Positions 6,118-20,914 of a DNA stretch of 20,914 bases are shown in pieces (positions within the stretch are counted from its first letter, which is position 1; the number at the start of each line of letters is the position of its first letter). The notes under the pieces are model-generated. The model worked only from the letters and a program-made list of their open reading frames with translations. It did not search any database and had not been told where the DNA came from. A program made the position numbers and the translations under genes. The stretch is from an uncultured Flavobacterium sp. Its GTDB lineage: Bacteria > Bacteroidota > Bacteroidia > Flavobacteriales > Flavobacteriaceae. The stretch covers positions 1 to 20,914 of the forward strand of contig NZ_CAMLMK010000050.1 in the NCBI RefSeq assembly GCF_946481155.1, written 5' to 3'.

Positions 6118-8103
6118 ATGAATAATAAAGAAAAACCTGTACCCCATAACGAGCCAGAACGTCTAGCAGCATTAAAACGCTATAACATTCTTGACACACT
6201 ACCTGAGCACGCATTTGATGATGCAACAAAACTTGTTTCCTATATATGTGGTGTACCTATTGCACATATATCATTCATTGATGAAAACAGACAATGGTTT
6301 AAATCGGAAATTGGAATTGGAGTTTCAGAAGTACCCCGGGAAATTAGTTTTTGCCAGTATACTATTATGGATACAAAACTGGTTGAAATACCCGATACCT
6401 TTTTAAATGAACAATTTAGAAATGATCCTAATGTTGTTGACGGTTTTAAAATCAGGTTTTACGCCGGTATTCCACTTACAACACCTGACGGTTATAATAT
6501 AGGAACTATATGTGCTATTGACCATACTACCAAAGAGCTGAATGATAACCAACGAAATGCTCTTTCGATTATTGCGAAGCATGTAATAAACCAATTGGAA
6601 CTTAGAACAAAAAATATTGAACTGGACACTCAGAAAAAAATTGCAGAACTTGCCGTACTCGCAAAAGATAGTTTTTTGGCAAATATGAGTCACGAAATCA
6701 GAACACCTTTAAATGCTGTAATTGGATTTACTGATCTTCTGGCCCAAACAAAACTGGATAAGCTTCAGCGTGATTACATTGACAGTGTACAAATTGCCGG
6801 AGAAAATCTGCTTTTAATAATTAATGACATTCTGGATCTTTCTAAAATTGAATCCGGCAATCTGGCTATTGAAGCACAACCATTCAATCTAAAAAAGACA
6901 TTAAAACATGTTTATGATTTACTAAAAGTAAAAGCCTCGCCAGCTGTTGAATTCAACCTGTTTCTGGATGCCGATATGCCTGAAATGGTTATTGGCGATC
7001 ACGGAAGACTGAACCAAATACTGGTTAACCTTACTGGAAACGCCTTAAAATTTACTGAAGAAGGTGAAGTAACTATTTCTGTCAAAAAAATAGATGAAAC
7101 TGCCGATTATTATTCGCTTCGATTCTCTGTTAAAGATACCGGAATAGGCATTCCTGAGGATAAACTTAAAACTATTTTTGACCGTTTTACACAAGCTGAA
7201 GAAAGTACTACGCGAAGATTTGGAGGTACCGGACTGGGACTAAACATCGTAAAACAGCTAATTGAAATGCAGAATTCCCAAATTCACGTAAAAAGTAAAG
7301 AGAATCGGGGTTCAGAATTTTTCTTTCAAATAAATTACAAAAAAGCAAACCCTGTTGAATCAGAAACGGAATCAATTGCAGACGACGATCTTGGTAAACT
7401 TAAAATTCTTCTTTGCGAAGACAATATCATAAACCAGAAACTGGCAAAAAGTGTCATCCTTAATTTCGGATTTGAGTTAGACATTGCTGAAAATGGTGAA
7501 AAAGGAATCGATTTATTATTACAAAACGAATATGATTTGGTGTTAATGGATTTGCAGATGCCTTTTAAAGATGGTTATCAAACCACCGAATACATTAGGA
7601 ATGAAATGAATTCCAACATTCCTATTATTGCCATGACTGCTCATTCTCTGGTAGGTGAACAGGAACGTTGTTTCAAAATTGGTATGGATGCTTATGTGCC
7701 AAAACCTTTTAAGCAGCAATTACTTTTAGAGACTATAAAAACTGTAATAAACAAAGATAATAAGGCGCAACCAAAACGAAAGATTGATTTATCTTATTTA
7801 GATGATCTATCATGTGGAAATCCAAACTTTAAGCAGGAAATGATTGCTCTTTTTATCGAAAAAATCCCGAATGAAGCAATACAACTCGAAGAAGCAATCC
7901 AGAATATTGACCATGACAAAGTGAAAAAGTTGTCACATAATATGAAATCCAGTATAGATTTGTTCATGCTGGATGATCTTAGTCATTGTTTGTCAGTTAT
8001 TGAGCAAGAAGCTAAATCCGGACAGTTTACTGAAACTTCAAATAAAATTACTGTTTTACAGTACGGAATTGCTGATGTAATTAAAATTTTAAAGGAACTA
8101 TGA
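6118..8103 (+). CDS. Soluble hybrid histidine kinase: GAF-HisKA-HATPase-REC-HPt
   Basis: A 661-residue cytoplasmic hybrid sensor kinase. The GAF domain spans about 20-165 (FCQYTI and GTICAIDH are typical). HisKA carries phospho-acceptor His192 in NMSHEIRTPLNA. The ATPase domain has Asn308 (N box), DTGIGIP (340-346) and GGTGLGLNIV (369-378). The receiver has acidic Glu434/Asp435, phospho-acceptor Asp478 (LMDLQMP) and Lys529. The C-terminal HPt has His607 (SHNMKSS). All phosphorelay residues are intact. No membrane segment or signal peptide is present, so the signal should be cytoplasmic; the GAF ligand is unknown. I chose ATG 6118: a GTG at 6052 would add a Phe-rich tail with no family character. 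The next gene is a lone receiver, the likely final acceptor from His607. Confidence 0.93.
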   Translation: MNNKEKPVPHNEPERLAALKRYNILDTLPEHAFDDATKLVSYICGVPIAHISFIDENRQWFKSEIGIGVSEVPREISFCQYTIMDTKLVEIPDTFLNEQFRNDPNVVDGFKIRFYAGIPLTTPDGYNIGTICAIDHTTKELNDNQRNALSIIAKHVINQLELRTKNIELDTQKKIAELAVLAKDSFLANMSHEIRTPLNAVIGFTDLLAQTKLDKLQRDYIDSVQIAGENLLLIINDILDLSKIESGNLAIEAQPFNLKKTLKHVYDLLKVKASPAVEFNLFLDADMPEMVIGDHGRLNQILVNLTGNALKFTEEGEVTISVKKIDETADYYSLRFSVKDTGIGIPEDKLKTIFDRFTQAEESTTRRFGGTGLGLNIVKQLIEMQNSQIHVKSKENRGSEFFFQINYKKANPVESETESIADDDLGKLKILLCEDNIINQKLAKSVILNFGFELDIAENGEKGIDLLLQNEYDLVLMDLQMPFKDGYQTTEYIRNEMNSNIPIIAMTAHSLVGEQERCFKIGMDAYVPKPFKQQLLLETIKTVINKDNKAQPKRKIDLSYLDDLSCGNPNFKQEMIALFIEKIPNEAIQLEEAIQNIDHDKVKKLSHNMKSSIDLFMLDDLSHCLSVIEQEAKSGQFTETSNKITVLQYGIADVIKILKEL

Positions 8104-8153
8104 TAAAAGAGAAATATGCAATAGCTTTGTATAAATTTTAGATTTTGTAAAAT

Positions 8154-8161
8154 TAAGTTTG
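8154..8161 (+). promoter_or_regulatory. Possible -7 element for the receiver-HEAT-GT2 operon
   Basis: TAAGTTTG matches TAnnTTTG exactly, 23 bases before the ATG at 8185. The nearest upstream TTTG (8126-8129) is 24 bases away, slightly longer than ideal. If used, it would let the three downstream genes be expressed apart from the kinase. Confidence 0.35.
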
Positions 8162-8184
8162 TCCCAAAACAAATATTTAAAACA

Positions 8185-8550
8185 ATGAAAATAATCTTAT
8201 CTGAAGATAATGAAATCCTACGCAAATCATTATCTTTTTTCCTGGAGTCCAAAGGATTTACTGTTGACCAGTTTTCTGATGGTAAGGATGCCCTCGATGC
8301 TATACGTACAAATGAGTATGATCTGATTTTGACAGATATAAATATACCCGGCATCAGCGGAATGGAAATTACGCAATATGTAAGACAGAGCATTGGCTCA
8401 GATATTCCAATAATTATATTTACTTCATCGGGTATTGAGCAGACCGAATTGGATTCTTTTGACATAGGTGCAAACGAATTTATTGCTAAACCGGTGAGTC
8501 CGGCTGTACTTTTAGTAAGAATCAATAAGTTACTAAACATACGTGTTTAA
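8185..8550 (+). CDS. Stand-alone response regulator receiver (single REC domain)
   Basis: A 121-residue protein made only of a receiver domain. It has the acidic pair Glu7/Asp8, phospho-acceptor Asp51 (LILTDINIPG), the switch Thr80 (IIIFTSSG) and Lys102 (IAKPVSP). No DNA-binding, enzymatic or other output domain follows, so it must act by protein contact, like CheY or Spo0F. It sits 81 bases after the hybrid kinase and 13 bases before the HEAT-repeat gene. The natural reading is that it takes phosphate from His607 of the kinase HPt and acts on the products of the next two genes; that step is inference. Confidence 0.93.
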   Translation: MKIILSEDNEILRKSLSFFLESKGFTVDQFSDGKDALDAIRTNEYDLILTDINIPGISGMEITQYVRQSIGSDIPIIIFTSSGIEQTELDSFDIGANEFIAKPVSPAVLLVRINKLLNIRV

Positions 8551-8563
8551 TGACATTTCTGAT

Positions 8564-9388
8564 ATGATAAAAATAGCGGAACTTTATAAGAATAGTGACG
8601 CATGGATTGAGTCATTCCTAATCCTGTCAATTAGCCTGTTTATAGGGGCATCATTGATACTGTATCTATTGATTATCAGGAGTCGAAGCAATAATATTAG
8701 AAAAGAAAAACTCCGAATCGAATACAATATACTTATTGATAAATTAATGTTTTCGGTAGTTTTTCAGGATACTCCTTTTTCTGCCATTAAGGAAGACAAA
8801 AATTATAGTAAGCTTTCTAATACTACTTTCTTCAGATCAATTTTAACCGAATCCATTATAAATCTCCATACAAACTACGAAGGTATTTATGCCCAAAAGC
8901 TGGAACAATTTTATAAAGAGTCCGGATTAATAAATGATTCATTTAAAAAGCTCAAAAGCGCAAAATGGGAACTAAAGTGTAAAGGAATTACCGAACTTGC
9001 GGAATTGAATATAAATGAGGCTTTTGACAGTATAGTAGAAGTGGCTAAAGCCAAAAATAAAACTTTAAAAATCACAGCAATAAATGCCTGCATCAAACTT
9101 GCAGGTACAAAAGGAATAGTACACCTTACAGCGCATCCTTACCCTATTGACGATTGGACTCAGGTAAATATTATAAACGCTTTTAAAAAACACGATATAG
9201 GTGATATTAGAGGTGTAGAACTCTTATTAGAATCACAAAACACCACTGTTGTAACACTTGGATTAAAGCTTATTAAAGAGCTTAAACTTTCTCAAAAAAT
9301 CCCTCATGTAGAAAAATTAGTTGCCAGAACTCCAGACACACTAATACAGAATGAAGCACAAAACGTATTGCAGGCATTAACAATATAA
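8564..9388 (+). CDS. Single-pass membrane protein with cytoplasmic HEAT-like repeats
   Basis: A protein of 274 residues. One membrane helix (about 17-38) is followed by a basic stretch (RSRSNNIRKEK), which suggests that the C-terminal bulk is cytoplasmic. Residues about 125-274 form successive helical pairs resembling HEAT repeats (for example WELKCKGITELAELNINEAF, LKITAINACIKLAG, TTVVTLGLKLIKEL). HEAT arrays are protein-binding scaffolds. I chose ATG 8564, 13 bases after the receiver stop; a GTG at 8543 overlapping the receiver gene would add seven residues and is less likely. The GT2 gene starts 12 bases after it. Position between a receiver and a polysaccharide synthase suggests an adaptor that passes the signal to the synthase. 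No enzymatic motif is visible. Confidence 0.8.
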   Translation: MIKIAELYKNSDAWIESFLILSISLFIGASLILYLLIIRSRSNNIRKEKLRIEYNILIDKLMFSVVFQDTPFSAIKEDKNYSKLSNTTFFRSILTESIINLHTNYEGIYAQKLEQFYKESGLINDSFKKLKSAKWELKCKGITELAELNINEAFDSIVEVAKAKNKTLKITAINACIKLAGTKGIVHLTAHPYPIDDWTQVNIINAFKKHDIGDIRGVELLLESQNTTVVTLGLKLIKELKLSQKIPHVEKLVARTPDTLIQNEAQNVLQALTI

Positions 9389-9400
9389 CAATAGCAGCAA

Positions 9401-10831
9401 ATGACTTTTTTTAATAGTGAAATAAGCGCATTTTTTGAGATCTATCTAATCCTGATACTTGGGTATGCAATACTCATTATGTCTTCTTATCTTATATTAG
9501 CCTATCTTTCTACAAAAGAACTAAAAGAATATCTGAAAAAAAATAGTTTTGTAGACTACGAAGTGCTACTTACAAGTGAATTTGCGCCAAGCCTTTCACT
9601 AATTGCTCCAGCCTACAACGAAGGTTTCACCATTGAAGAAAATGTAAAATCATTACTTTCCTTAAACTACAATAATTATCAGGTAATTGTGGTGAATGAT
9701 GGCAGTAAGGACAATTCGATGGATATCCTCATTAAGACCTATGACCTTGTTCTGACGGAACTTGATATTCATTCAAAAATTGAAACGAAAAAAGTTAAAG
9801 GAATTTACACTTCCAGAAACGCTGCTTATAAAAAACTGATAGTGGTTGACAAAGAAAACGGCGGTAAAGCCGATGCTTTGAATGTAGGACTTAACATTGC
9901 ACAAAATCAGTATGTAGTATGTATTGATGTAGATTGTATCCTTGATAAAGATTCATTGCTTAAACTGGCAAAACCATTTCTTGAATCTTACGGTAAGCGC
10001 GTTATTGCTACCGGTGGTGTAGTAAGGATTGCAAACCAGTGTATCATCAAAAACGGACGCTTAGTCGAAGTAAATATTCCGAATGTGATGCTGCCAAGAA
10101 TACAGGTTTTAGAATACCTTAGAGCATTTCTTTTGGGAAGAATGGCCTGGGGAAGACTCGATGGATTATTGCTTATCAGTGGTGCATTTGGCGCATTTGA
10201 TAAAGAAATAGCTTTGCTTACCGGCGGTTATAGTACAAAAACCGTGGGTGAAGACATGGAACTGGTAGTACGCATGCGTCGTTATATGCTTGAAAACAAG
10301 ATACCCTATGCAGTTAGTTATATACCGGATCCTCTTTGCTGGACAGAAGCTCCTGAAGACTCTAAAATATTCAAAAAACAGCGCAGCCGCTGGATGCGAG
10401 GAACCATAGAAACCCTTAACATTCATAAAAAAATGTTCCTGAATCCTAGATACAAGCTACTGGGAATGCTCAGTGTACCTTACTGGACATTTTTTGAATT
10501 CCTGGCTCCTGCAATAGAGTTTATAGGCCTTATAATAACAATTTTGCTTATTGCATTTGGTTTATTGAACTGGTATTTTTTCTTTTTACTACTTCTATTT
10601 GTTTACTTTTTTGCTATATTATTTTCAGTTATGGCTCTTTACAGTGAAGAACATACCTACCACAAGTATCCAAAACAAGCCGATTTTTTAAAACTGTTGT
10701 TGGCTGCTTTTATAGAACCCTTGTATTTTCATCCTCTAACAGTATATGCTGCTTTAATTGGTTACAAAGAAAAAATGATGGGTACCAAAGGCTGGGGTGA
10801 AATGACAAGAAAAGGATTTACTAAAAGATAG
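9401..10831 (+). CDS. Processive GT2 membrane glycosyltransferase (PgaC/cellulose synthase-like)
   Basis: A 476-residue inner-membrane family 2 glycosyltransferase. An N-terminal helix (about 11-35) is followed by a cytoplasmic catalytic domain with Asp100 (VVNDGSKD), GGKADALN (154-161), the DXD motif DVD (176-178), GED (283-285, the acceptor Asp) and QRSRW (327-331), the mark of processive synthases such as PgaC, NodC and BcsA. At least three C-terminal helices follow (about 360-380, 382-400, 400-415), with hydrophobic stretches near 430-455. There is no PilZ domain, so no sign of c-di-GMP control. The likely product is an extracellular homopolymer, but sugar identity cannot be read from sequence. 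No deacetylase, PgaD-like or outer-membrane export gene is adjacent. It is the last gene of the operon. Confidence 0.9.
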   Translation: MTFFNSEISAFFEIYLILILGYAILIMSSYLILAYLSTKELKEYLKKNSFVDYEVLLTSEFAPSLSLIAPAYNEGFTIEENVKSLLSLNYNNYQVIVVNDGSKDNSMDILIKTYDLVLTELDIHSKIETKKVKGIYTSRNAAYKKLIVVDKENGGKADALNVGLNIAQNQYVVCIDVDCILDKDSLLKLAKPFLESYGKRVIATGGVVRIANQCIIKNGRLVEVNIPNVMLPRIQVLEYLRAFLLGRMAWGRLDGLLLISGAFGAFDKEIALLTGGYSTKTVGEDMELVVRMRRYMLENKIPYAVSYIPDPLCWTEAPEDSKIFKKQRSRWMRGTIETLNIHKKMFLNPRYKLLGMLSVPYWTFFEFLAPAIEFIGLIITILLIAFGLLNWYFFFLLLLFVYFFAILFSVMALYSEEHTYHKYPKQADFLKLLLAAFIEPLYFHPLTVYAALIGYKEKMMGTKGWGEMTRKGFTKR

Positions 10832-11173: not shown

Positions 11174-11899
11174 ATGAAAACAAACCTATTCCAAACAACA
11201 ATAATTGCTTTTTTGCTATTTGTTTCAGCACCTGCTGCATTTGCTCATGCACTTTGGATTGAAACTAAAGCTACCGGTAGTAAAGGAAAACCTCAGGAAA
11301 TTTCAGTGTATTTTGGTGAATTTTCAGAAAATGACATCACAAAATCTGATAAATGGTTTTCGGATTTAAAAGATTTCACACTACTGGTAATCAGCCCGAC
11401 GAAAAAAGAAATCAAATTAAAATCGACCGCACTGGAGAACAAATACCAGGCATTCTTTACTCCTGATGAAGAAGGGGTTTATACCGTAGTTATGCAGCAT
11501 ACCGTAAAAGACATTTATGGTACTATGGTACTGGATTACAATTCCAGCGCTAACATTGTGGTAGGAAACAAACTCAACGGAAACTTAAGCACTAACAACA
11601 GCAACAAAATAGCTGTTTTTACCGAAAACACAACTGATATACGCAAAAACCAAAAGATTACCGCTATTGCTATCTATAACAATGCTATTGCAAAATCACA
11701 AAAAGTAAAAGTTATTGCGCCAAATGGCTGGGAAAAAGAATTATGGACAAACGAAAACGGAGAAATTTCGTTTACTCCGATTTGGTCAGGAAATTATATG
11801 ATTGAGTTTTCTCAAACAGAGAAGAAATCCGGAGAACACCACGGAAAAAAATACGACGAAATATGGAAAATGGCAACTTACCAACTCGTTGTGAACTAA
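11174..11899 (+). CDS. Secreted DUF4198-like protein, possibly metal-related
   Basis: A 241-residue secreted protein. The signal peptide covers about 1-24 (hydrophobic core IIAFLLFVSAP, cleavage after AFA), so the mature protein would begin with His25 in HALWIE. This matches the start of DUF4198 proteins, annotated as periplasmic parts of cobalt/nickel uptake (COG5266); an N-terminal histidine is a metal ligand in some related systems. The rest looks like two beta-rich Ig-like modules, with a short His-containing segment near the C-terminus (EHHGKKYDE). No transporter or TonB receptor gene is adjacent, so metal binding is inference only. The gene has its own promoter-like element and a terminator shared with the convergent DUF3826 gene. 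Confidence 0.75.
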   Translation: MKTNLFQTTIIAFLLFVSAPAAFAHALWIETKATGSKGKPQEISVYFGEFSENDITKSDKWFSDLKDFTLLVISPTKKEIKLKSTALENKYQAFFTPDEEGVYTVVMQHTVKDIYGTMVLDYNSSANIVVGNKLNGNLSTNNSNKIAVFTENTTDIRKNQKITAIAIYNNAIAKSQKVKVIAPNGWEKELWTNENGEISFTPIWSGNYMIEFSQTEKKSGEHHGKKYDEIWKMATYQLVVN

Positions 11900-11918
11900 T
11901 CTTATTAATTGATTTCAT

Positions 11919-11961
11919 AAAAAAAGGTCTTAATGCTTATTTGCGTTAAAGACCTTTTTTT
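11919..11961. terminator. Bidirectional terminator between DUF4198 and DUF3826 genes
   Basis: An A-run and GGTCTTAA on the left face TTAAAGACC and a T-run on the right, with a one-base bulge. The A-run and T-run on opposite sides suit termination from both directions, as expected between these convergent genes. Confidence 0.8.
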
Positions 11962-11962
11962 A

Positions 11963-12622
11963 TTACTGTTTTTTAGCTGCTTTCTCAGCCTTAATTTTTT
12001 TGGTATAATCTGCGTACATCTGACGCCAGTTACGACCATTATTGTTCAAATATTGCTCGGCTTGTGTTTTATAAATTTCAAAAATTGCCGATATCTCCTT
12101 CATACTTTTATAATCAACGGCCTGTTCACGTGCTTTTTCTAATAATTTCTGAATTTCAGCAGTCTCAGCAGCCGTCATTTGAGGGACAATCGCCTGATAA
12201 CCCTTCATCGTAAAAGCAACTTTTCCGATAGTGTATTTATCCAAAACCAATGCTACTTGCTCTTCGCTCAAATCTTTTCTTAAGCCTGACATTAAATCCT
12301 GATGAATACTGGAAGGCATTGCTGAATCGGCAATAATTTGTCGATGCAATTCCGAAAGCGGCTTCCCGTCTAAAGGATTGATTCCAGCCGGAACTGTAGT
12401 AGCAGGATGGCTATTGTGCCAATCTTTTATTAATGAAAGGTGCGTTGCAACCACTTGGACTAATCGGTCTTCTTTTGCGTTATCCTTCAACTCTAATGTG
12501 CTGATCCATTCTTTTGCCTTTTTAACTTCTTCATCAGAAGCCTTTACTGATTGTGCATTTGCCAGAGTACCCAAAGTCATCAATCCAATGAGCAGTGCGA
12601 CTTTAATCTTTTTTGCTTTCAT
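11963..12622 (-). CDS. Secreted DUF3826 domain protein
   Basis: A 219-residue protein with a signal peptide (about 1-23, MKAKKIKVALLIGLM start, cleavage after ANA). The body is mostly alpha-helical and highly charged. Conserved DUF3826 blocks are visible: KYTIGKVAFTMKGYQAIVPQ (129-148) and SMKEISAIFEIYK (173-185). DUF3826 proteins are found in Bacteroidetes, often near polysaccharide-related genes, and have no established activity. Here it stands alone, convergent with the DUF4198 gene and divergent from the TPR gene. A short TGTGTT/AACACA inverted repeat (12652-12666) lies upstream and could affect its transcription, but I see no clear promoter. Confidence 0.85.
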   Translation of the reverse strand: MKAKKIKVALLIGLMTLGTLANAQSVKASDEEVKKAKEWISTLELKDNAKEDRLVQVVATHLSLIKDWHNSHPATTVPAGINPLDGKPLSELHRQIIADSAMPSSIHQDLMSGLRKDLSEEQVALVLDKYTIGKVAFTMKGYQAIVPQMTAAETAEIQKLLEKAREQAVDYKSMKEISAIFEIYKTQAEQYLNNNGRNWRQMYADYTKKIKAEKAAKKQ

Positions 12623-12799
12623 TTATAATTTTTTTTTGTTTTATATTATTATGTGTTAAAAACACAATTCCAATTAATATCAAAAAACAAGCCAAAAATG
12701 TCCTTTAAAATTTATTGTAATAAATTCATTTGTTTGCATCAAAAACAACTTTCAAATGCTTATTTTTAACCGACCCAATAAATTAAAAAATACCTGCTC

Positions 12800-20692: not shown

Positions 20693-20709
20693 GAATTTTA
20701 CAGAACTCG

Positions 20710-20914
20710 ATGCAGAACATCACGCGCTGGCCTTTTGCGGACGATCTGATTCACTGGTTGGACCGGTTTTGGGCCGTGCGGAGCCTGGGCGGGGCGATGG
20801 ATTCGATGTTCGTGGCGGCCGGACACGCCGACGCATGGATCGAGCAGGGCGCGAAGCCGTGGGATTTGGCCTCAATCCAGGTAATCACGGAAGAAGCCGA
20901 CGGCGTTTTTTTCA
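20710..20914 (+). CDS. Partial inositol monophosphatase/HisN-like phosphatase, foreign composition
   Basis: An open frame runs from here off the end of the window. The 68 encoded residues resemble the C-terminal half of inositol monophosphatase-family enzymes, including histidinol-phosphatase-like members. RSLGGAMDSMFVAAGHADAW followed by KPWDLASIQVITEEADGVFF matches the family's WD-x-A...EA-G metal-binding motif, with the metal-ligand Asp in PWDLA. The ATG at 20710 is not a credible true start: about 170 N-terminal residues of the family are missing. G+C by hand count is about 61% over 20711-20914, against about 35% in a sampled line just upstream, with high-G+C codon use. I read it as an internal fragment of a gene from another organism joined to this contig. 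Confidence 0.7.
   Translation, partial: MQNITRWPFADDLIHWLDRFWAVRSLGGAMDSMFVAAGHADAWIEQGAKPWDLASIQVITEEADGVFF

Follow-up and report, generated by a model that had tools for sequence, protein, structure and literature searches.

The window analysed here, a stretch of 20,914 nucleotides from an uncultured Flavobacterium sp. (contig NZ_CAMLMK010000050.1), carries four genes on the + strand that encode, in this order, a hybrid histidine kinase, a stand-alone receiver, a membrane protein with a HEAT-like solenoid and a membrane glycosyltransferase of family 2 (GT2). Over positions 1-20702 the window aligns at 99.7% identity to a contig of Flavobacterium palustre (L001; L and G numbers denote the loci and genomes compared in this work). 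Our results show that the receiver, the HEAT protein and the GT2 belong to a real and widely conserved module, and make it plausible, as far as sequence can tell, that a phosphorelay is wired through the HEAT protein to a polysaccharide synthase.

Genes and proteins of the locus

The receiver and HEAT genes are separated by 13 bases and the HEAT and GT2 genes by 12, and 81 bases lie between the kinase and the receiver; an alternative GTG start of the HEAT gene would produce an 8-base overlap with the receiver gene. The first-pass annotation of this DNA, which had listed these genes together with His192, Asp478, His607, Asp51 and the spacings of 13 and 12 bases, proved exact in all of these particulars. 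The coordinates of the features are collected in Table 1.

The kinase unites HisKA, HATPase, receiver and Hpt domains in a single chain with the corresponding His, Asp and His residues, as in tripartite phosphorelay kinases of the ArcB/BarA style, although its Hpt match (22.8 bits) falls under the Pfam cut-off of 24.6. A simple hydropathy scan predicted no membrane segment in this protein and none in the stand-alone receiver. The latter has the make-up of a single-domain response regulator, with an acidic pair, the acceptor Asp, a Thr/Ser, a Lys and no output domain. Thr80 is kept in 81/81 rows of the near alignment (window included), and in the alignment of distant receivers, again with the window included, Asp51 is present in 41 of 44 rows and Lys102 in all 44. 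The kinases adjacent to the module that were scanned in two other lineages (L068, L124) also end in receiver-Hpt, as would be expected if the Hpt domain feeds the stand-alone receiver. In relatives, the kinase is often located elsewhere than the module.

The HEAT_2 match of the third protein scores 19.7 bits, under the Pfam cut-off of 27.7. Its AlphaFold2 model, built on a 39-sequence alignment, is a confident helical solenoid (mean predicted local distance difference test score, pLDDT, 88.6), in which a single long helix comprising residues 11-67 would run through the membrane, ahead of the helical repeats. Foldseek matches of this model in the PDB are modest and mostly of the alphaRep/armadillo type (query TM-scores about 0.3-0.4), the sole match at E <= 0.001 being a designed oligomer, and a profile search against the sequences of solved structures returned designed alphaRep proteins only, at E 0.016 or worse. 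A membrane helix is predicted in 134 of 135 open reading frames (ORFs) of the HEAT family, the exception being that of L023, which begins late. Since all 134 show an excess of Lys and Arg on the C-terminal side of the helix, the solenoid is placed in the cytoplasm.

Some HEAT proteins have an extra N-terminal region before the membrane helix (L117, 6876-8789; L122, 7395-8969; L138, 7173-8618 on the - strand). That of L117 contains a sub-threshold SPOR match and that of L138 a LysM-like segment seen by eye and unreported by Pfam; such regions might serve for sensing or anchoring in the envelope. L117 (6432-11492), L118 (4334-8090), L144 and L148 contain a further, divergent version of the module, whose HEAT proteins are different or longer, the second-copy GT2 of L144 and L148 being a fusion of 1260-1266 aa. 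In a metagenome-assembled genome (MAG) of Fluviicola (L080), a second receiver-HEAT pair lies at 11553-12790, just downstream of the GT2, and no second GT2 was seen in that locus.

The GT2 shows Asp, DxD, ED and QxxRW motifs together with membrane helices, two membrane segments being predicted by a simple hydropathy scan. Asp100 and Glu284-Asp285 are also invariant in the seven-member alignment referred to in Table 1, which comprises the window and six others at 41-54% identity to it. Judged from its sequence, the protein carries the motif set of processive synthases in the form described for NfrB in PMC8669469. No PilZ or MshEN Pfam match was found in the GT2 at E <= 0.01. Membership in the PgaC/IcaA family of poly-N-acetylglucosamine synthases was rejected, since TIGR03937, the best NCBIfam match, reaches 127.7 bits against a cut-off of 422.3. 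The nearest structural matches of the predicted model are hyaluronan synthase, the mannosyltransferase PcManGT and a Bcs cellulose synthase, BcsA (ranks 1-3), with TM-scores of 0.49 or less and identity of about 15%; because the model itself is poor (pLDDT 60), these matches lend weak support to the assignment. Against the sequences of solved structures, seven distant GT2 enzymes were retrieved, the best at E 2.9e-6 and 29.7 bits.

In the two other lineages scanned, a Sulfatase-family domain is fused to the GT2 (L124, 8752-12186) or an LtaS-like Sulfatase-family protein is encoded after it (L121, 11334-13757), which suggests a decorated polymer there, bearing a phospho-substituent.

Table 1. 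Features of the kinase, receiver, HEAT and GT2 genes in window coordinates.
Feature	Position	Strand	Basis
Soluble hybrid histidine kinase, 661 aa	6118..8103	+	Pfam: GAF, HisKA, HATPase_c, Response_reg, Hpt
HisKA phospho-acceptor His192	6691..6693	+	H in 79/80 aligned rows (window included), one gap
Kinase's own receiver, Asp478	7549..7551	+	D in 80/80 aligned rows
Hpt His607	7936..7938	+	H in 78/80 aligned rows, two gaps
Stand-alone receiver, 121 aa, no output domain	8185..8550	+	Pfam Response_reg only
Receiver phosphorylation site Asp51	8335..8337	+	D in 81/81 near rows (window included)
Receiver-HEAT gap, site of the YaiO barrel gene in most near relatives; absent in window	8551..8563	+	Locus comparison
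One-pass membrane protein with predicted cytoplasmic HEAT solenoid, 274 aa	8564..9388	+	AlphaFold2 model, hydropathy, weak fold matches
Predicted membrane helix of HEAT protein, residues 20-38	8621..8677	+	Hydropathy scan
Membrane GT2, processive-synthase type, 476 aa	9401..10831	+	Pfam GT2 families, motifs, low-confidence model
DVD motif of GT2 (Asp176, Asp178)	9926..9934	+	Both Asp invariant, seven-member alignment
QRSRW (QxxRW) motif of GT2	10379..10393	+	Q327, R328, R330 and W331 invariant, seven-member alignment

Conservation of the module in near and distant relatives

Near relatives were collected by scanning genome contigs with the GT2 alone; 466 were confirmed and the best 80 loci were kept, from Flavobacterium (including F. 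palustre itself, L001), Litoribacter, Lacihabitans, Anditalea, Aquirufa, Fluviicola and MAGs. When strict rules for spacing were applied, 73 of these 80 loci showed the order kinase-receiver-(YaiO)-HEAT-GT2. The HEAT gene lies directly 5' of the GT2 gene in every locus with a complete GT2 (79/79), and the kinase precedes the receiver in 76/80. Departures from the strict order correspond to a late HEAT start (L023), a split kinase ORF (L050), a kinase too far away by the rule (L067), a wider receiver-HEAT gap (L069), a contig end (L072), a locus without a kinase (L073) and a contig end without a kinase (L079). It should be considered here that ORF calling was mechanical and can mask or miss genes. 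No natural receiver-HEAT or HEAT-GT2 fusion was seen in the loci laid out, a search that was not exhaustive.

An orthologue of the YaiO outer-membrane barrel is encoded in 60/80 near loci, in 59 of them strictly between receiver and HEAT, and 38 of the 56 distant loci described below have a YaiO gene no more than five genes away. The protein of L016 combines TPR with a YaiO barrel (PF19413, 127.8 bits; TIGR04390, 155.4 bits). With this gene, which cannot be seen from the window and does not figure in the first-pass annotation, the locus of relatives has the appearance of a complete export machine of the synthase-dependent kind. The operon in the window is without a YaiO gene, and YaiO-coupled export is not assigned to it.

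The wider sample consisted of 395 genomes from the phylum of F. johnsoniae (G001), in which 42 gave a HEAT-family match (E <= 1e-5) and 93 a GT2 match (E <= 1e-90). All 42 HEAT genomes are also GT2-positive, against an expectation of about 10 under independence. Distant loci were taken from 38 HEAT places and 20 GT2 places, the latter in 19 GT2-positive genomes without a HEAT match plus a second locus of G255. The GT2 was found by script in 56 of these 58 (36 HEAT-chosen, 20 GT2-chosen), L141 and L152 being dropped. No GT2 was found in L152, and in L141, as in L134, HEAT and GT2 matches adjoin on one strand by coordinates, though the script missed one of them. HEAT is encoded directly upstream of the GT2 in 51/56 distant loci, namely 35/36 of the HEAT-chosen and 16/20 of the GT2-chosen.

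Of the 56 distant loci, 32 have a receiver-only gene directly upstream of HEAT, 43 have one in the same-strand run and 48 have one no more than five genes away; the background, small as it is, was 0/145 ORFs for receiver-only genes more than five genes off in the same stretches. The position of this gene varies: it may precede HEAT or YaiO, lie at the 3' end or be encoded on the opposite strand. Since the receiver moves yet usually stays, it appears to be functionally tied to HEAT and the synthase rather than held in a frozen order. The kinase is directly upstream of the receiver in only 16/56 loci, against 43/56 with the receiver in the run, which argues that the receiver is tied to HEAT and the synthase rather than to the kinase. 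In this regard, the window's receiver was searched against 18 whole module-bearing genomes, each of which contains 9-37 receiver matches at E <= 1e-8. The module's own receiver, with coordinates read by eye, was the top genome-wide match in 17 of the 18 and the second in G400, and this points to a receiver lineage inherited together with HEAT-GT2. Chance adjacency was rejected as an explanation in view of the strict order in near loci, the co-occurrence and adjacency in distant genomes and these receiver matches.

Control of the synthase

c-di-GMP (cyclic di-GMP) is frequently involved in the post-translational control of synthase-dependent polysaccharides, as summarised in the text of PMC12802240. 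We searched for c-di-GMP domains in 30 module-bearing genomes, a set to which F. palustre and loci L172 and L174 do not belong. GGDEF (PF00990) was found in 0/30, as compared with 8/14 positive control genomes, and PilZ (PF07238) likewise in none of the same 30, with 5/14 controls positive. Because neither domain was found in these genomes, c-di-GMP control of the synthase was judged unlikely in module-bearing genomes.

The reading that we favour, at a probability of about 0.58, is that a phosphorelay controls a synthase-dependent polysaccharide machine by way of a membrane HEAT adaptor. The soluble GAF kinase would hand phosphate from His192 to Asp478, then to His607 and finally to the receiver's Asp51. 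The phosphorylated receiver would in turn bind the cytoplasmic HEAT solenoid. The one-pass inner-membrane protein to which this solenoid belongs would sit docked on the GT2 as an adaptor and may switch the synthesis or the extrusion of a putative polymer, either up or down. In most relatives the polymer would exit through the YaiO barrel from the same operon. The phosphorelay would fill the role played in other synthases by c-di-GMP and PilZ or MshEN domains. The conserved gene company, together with the lack of c-di-GMP signs, suggests that the phosphorelay switches the polymer on or off directly.

Much of this had been proposed in the first-pass annotation, which had set beforehand, as a condition, that the three genes be found adjacent in other genomes. 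That adjacency holds in both the near and the distant loci, the receiver being mostly in the run. The association of receiver, HEAT and synthase has therefore been strengthened, as has the claim of independence from c-di-GMP, by the absence of GGDEF and PilZ from the 30 genomes and of a PilZ match from the GT2; the wiring from phosphorelay to HEAT to synthase is what we still infer.

Several observations weigh against this reading. Among the 93 GT2-positive genomes, 51 have no HEAT match at E <= 1e-5, and the 19 inspected are those that contributed GT2-chosen loci. By script, 5/56 distant loci lack a HEAT gene immediately 5' of the GT2 (in L134 it is masked by an antisense ORF), and some of the distant HEAT matches are weak, at 25-41 bits (L168, L172, L173, L178). 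No receiver-only gene lies within five genes in 8/56, and the receivers retained in L146, L147 and L177 lack Asp51. The HEAT protein has a mean conservation of 0.71, compared with 0.87 for the receiver and 0.89 for the synthase, unlike what a tight two-sided adaptor would show. The window has no YaiO, and 14/14 searched genomes with a YaiO-less locus hold only distant paralogues, their best YaiO-like matches being of about 115-162 bits, whereas the orthologue scores 716-728 in two control genomes. Finally, in the outlying loci L172 (4667-6454) and L174 (4907-6532) a receiver-GGDEF-receiver protein takes the place of the single receiver 5' of HEAT or GT2, so GGDEF is present somewhere in the wider family; its signature is degenerate by eye in both proteins, and c-di-GMP may not be made by them.

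The closest published mechanism is that of EpsW-EpsZ in Myxococcus xanthus, for which the main text of PMC12802240 reports that EpsW, a phosphorylated stand-alone receiver, activates polysaccharide synthesis post-translationally, likely by contacting a membrane sugar-transfer enzyme. EpsZ, however, is there described as the initiating phosphoglycosyl transferase of a Wzx/Wzy pathway, whereas the enzyme next to our receiver is a GT2 and not a monotopic phosphoglycosyl transferase. EpsW-EpsZ also differs in having no HEAT protein: the main text of PMC12802240 has no "Bacteroid-" mention, and "heat" occurs in it twice, both times in the methods. The closest enzyme-plus-barrel system is NfrBA-YbcH of Escherichia coli, which is similar in that, in the account of PMC8669469, one operon encodes a processive GT2 with DxD, TED and QxxRW motifs and a TPR-rich outer-membrane barrel. 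By contrast, c-di-GMP switches NfrB, which has an MshEN domain, and nfrBA-ybcH is presented in that account as a three-gene operon without a receiver or HEAT gene.

An unlikely alternative is that the receiver touches the GT2 directly, HEAT being a mere assembly or anchoring subunit of the synthase. HEAT-GT2 adjacency is indeed tighter than receiver-HEAT adjacency (51 against 32 of 56 directly adjacent, in a set in which 36 of 56 loci were HEAT-chosen), and direct action of a stand-alone receiver on an initiating transferase is what PMC12802240 reports for EpsW-EpsZ. Where the receiver lies away from HEAT, however, it is usually still found in one operon with HEAT and GT2, and gene order does not discriminate between the two partners. 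Moreover, HEAT solenoids are common binding scaffolds, and the weak alphaRep and armadillo fold matches of the window's protein are in line with such a part.

It is still less probable that the receiver serves as a phosphate sink or relay intermediate, in the manner of Spo0F, with another regulator as the real output and its place in the operon reflecting co-expression only. The full His-Asp-His relay in the kinase and the missing output domain of the receiver would suit such a role; the receiver lineage, however, tracks HEAT-GT2 and not the kinase, both in gene neighbourhood and in the genome-wide matches. We consider it very unlikely that the module sets where, and not whether, the polymer is made, the receiver and HEAT protein positioning the synthase in the envelope. 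The N-terminal extensions of the HEAT proteins of L117, L122 and L138, with SPOR below threshold in L117, would fit this idea, but the membrane helix begins no later than residue 42 in the window's protein and in the majority of the HEAT proteins scanned, too early to accommodate a domain of this kind.

Surrounding sequence and significance

Outside the proteins themselves, a Bacteroidetes-type promoter match lies at 8126-8161, 5' of the receiver, the window containing two matches to this consensus against 2.57 expected. The core motif occurs in 15/75 kinase-receiver gaps as compared with 2.3 in shuffles, uncorrected for relatedness, and the full pair in 1/75. Scans of the window for sigma-70 promoters and terminators remained at chance level, and those for Rfam families and tRNAs were empty. 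The stretch 553-2664 encodes MesX (PF08908, 562.6 bits) and, after it, a protein with the catalytic domain of cobalamin-independent methionine synthase (PF01717); together they resemble the MesX/MesD core methionine synthase. No alignment to the F. palustre contig was obtained for the last 212 bases of the window (20703-20914), of which the final 164 have a G+C content of 62%, the other 250-base blocks measured lying at 24-42%; this region is probably a chimeric contig end.

Among the papers listed in searches of open-licence PMC text, none on a receiver-HEAT-GT2 module was found, subscription papers and preprints being outside the scope of that search. As to the broader proposition, that Bacteroidota replaced c-di-GMP control of such synthases by a dedicated receiver acting on a synthase-docked membrane HEAT solenoid, in much of the phylum and with different kinases in different lineages, we see the chances as even.

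Together, our findings address how module-bearing genomes without GGDEF and PilZ switch synthases of this type, for which the locus offers a concrete answer of four or five genes. If true, it would add a class of control for synthases that the open-licence papers searched do not describe and that is spread through much of Bacteroidota. As a widely distributed marker, the module would also point to a surface polymer, which may matter for biofilm formation, gliding and phage adsorption.

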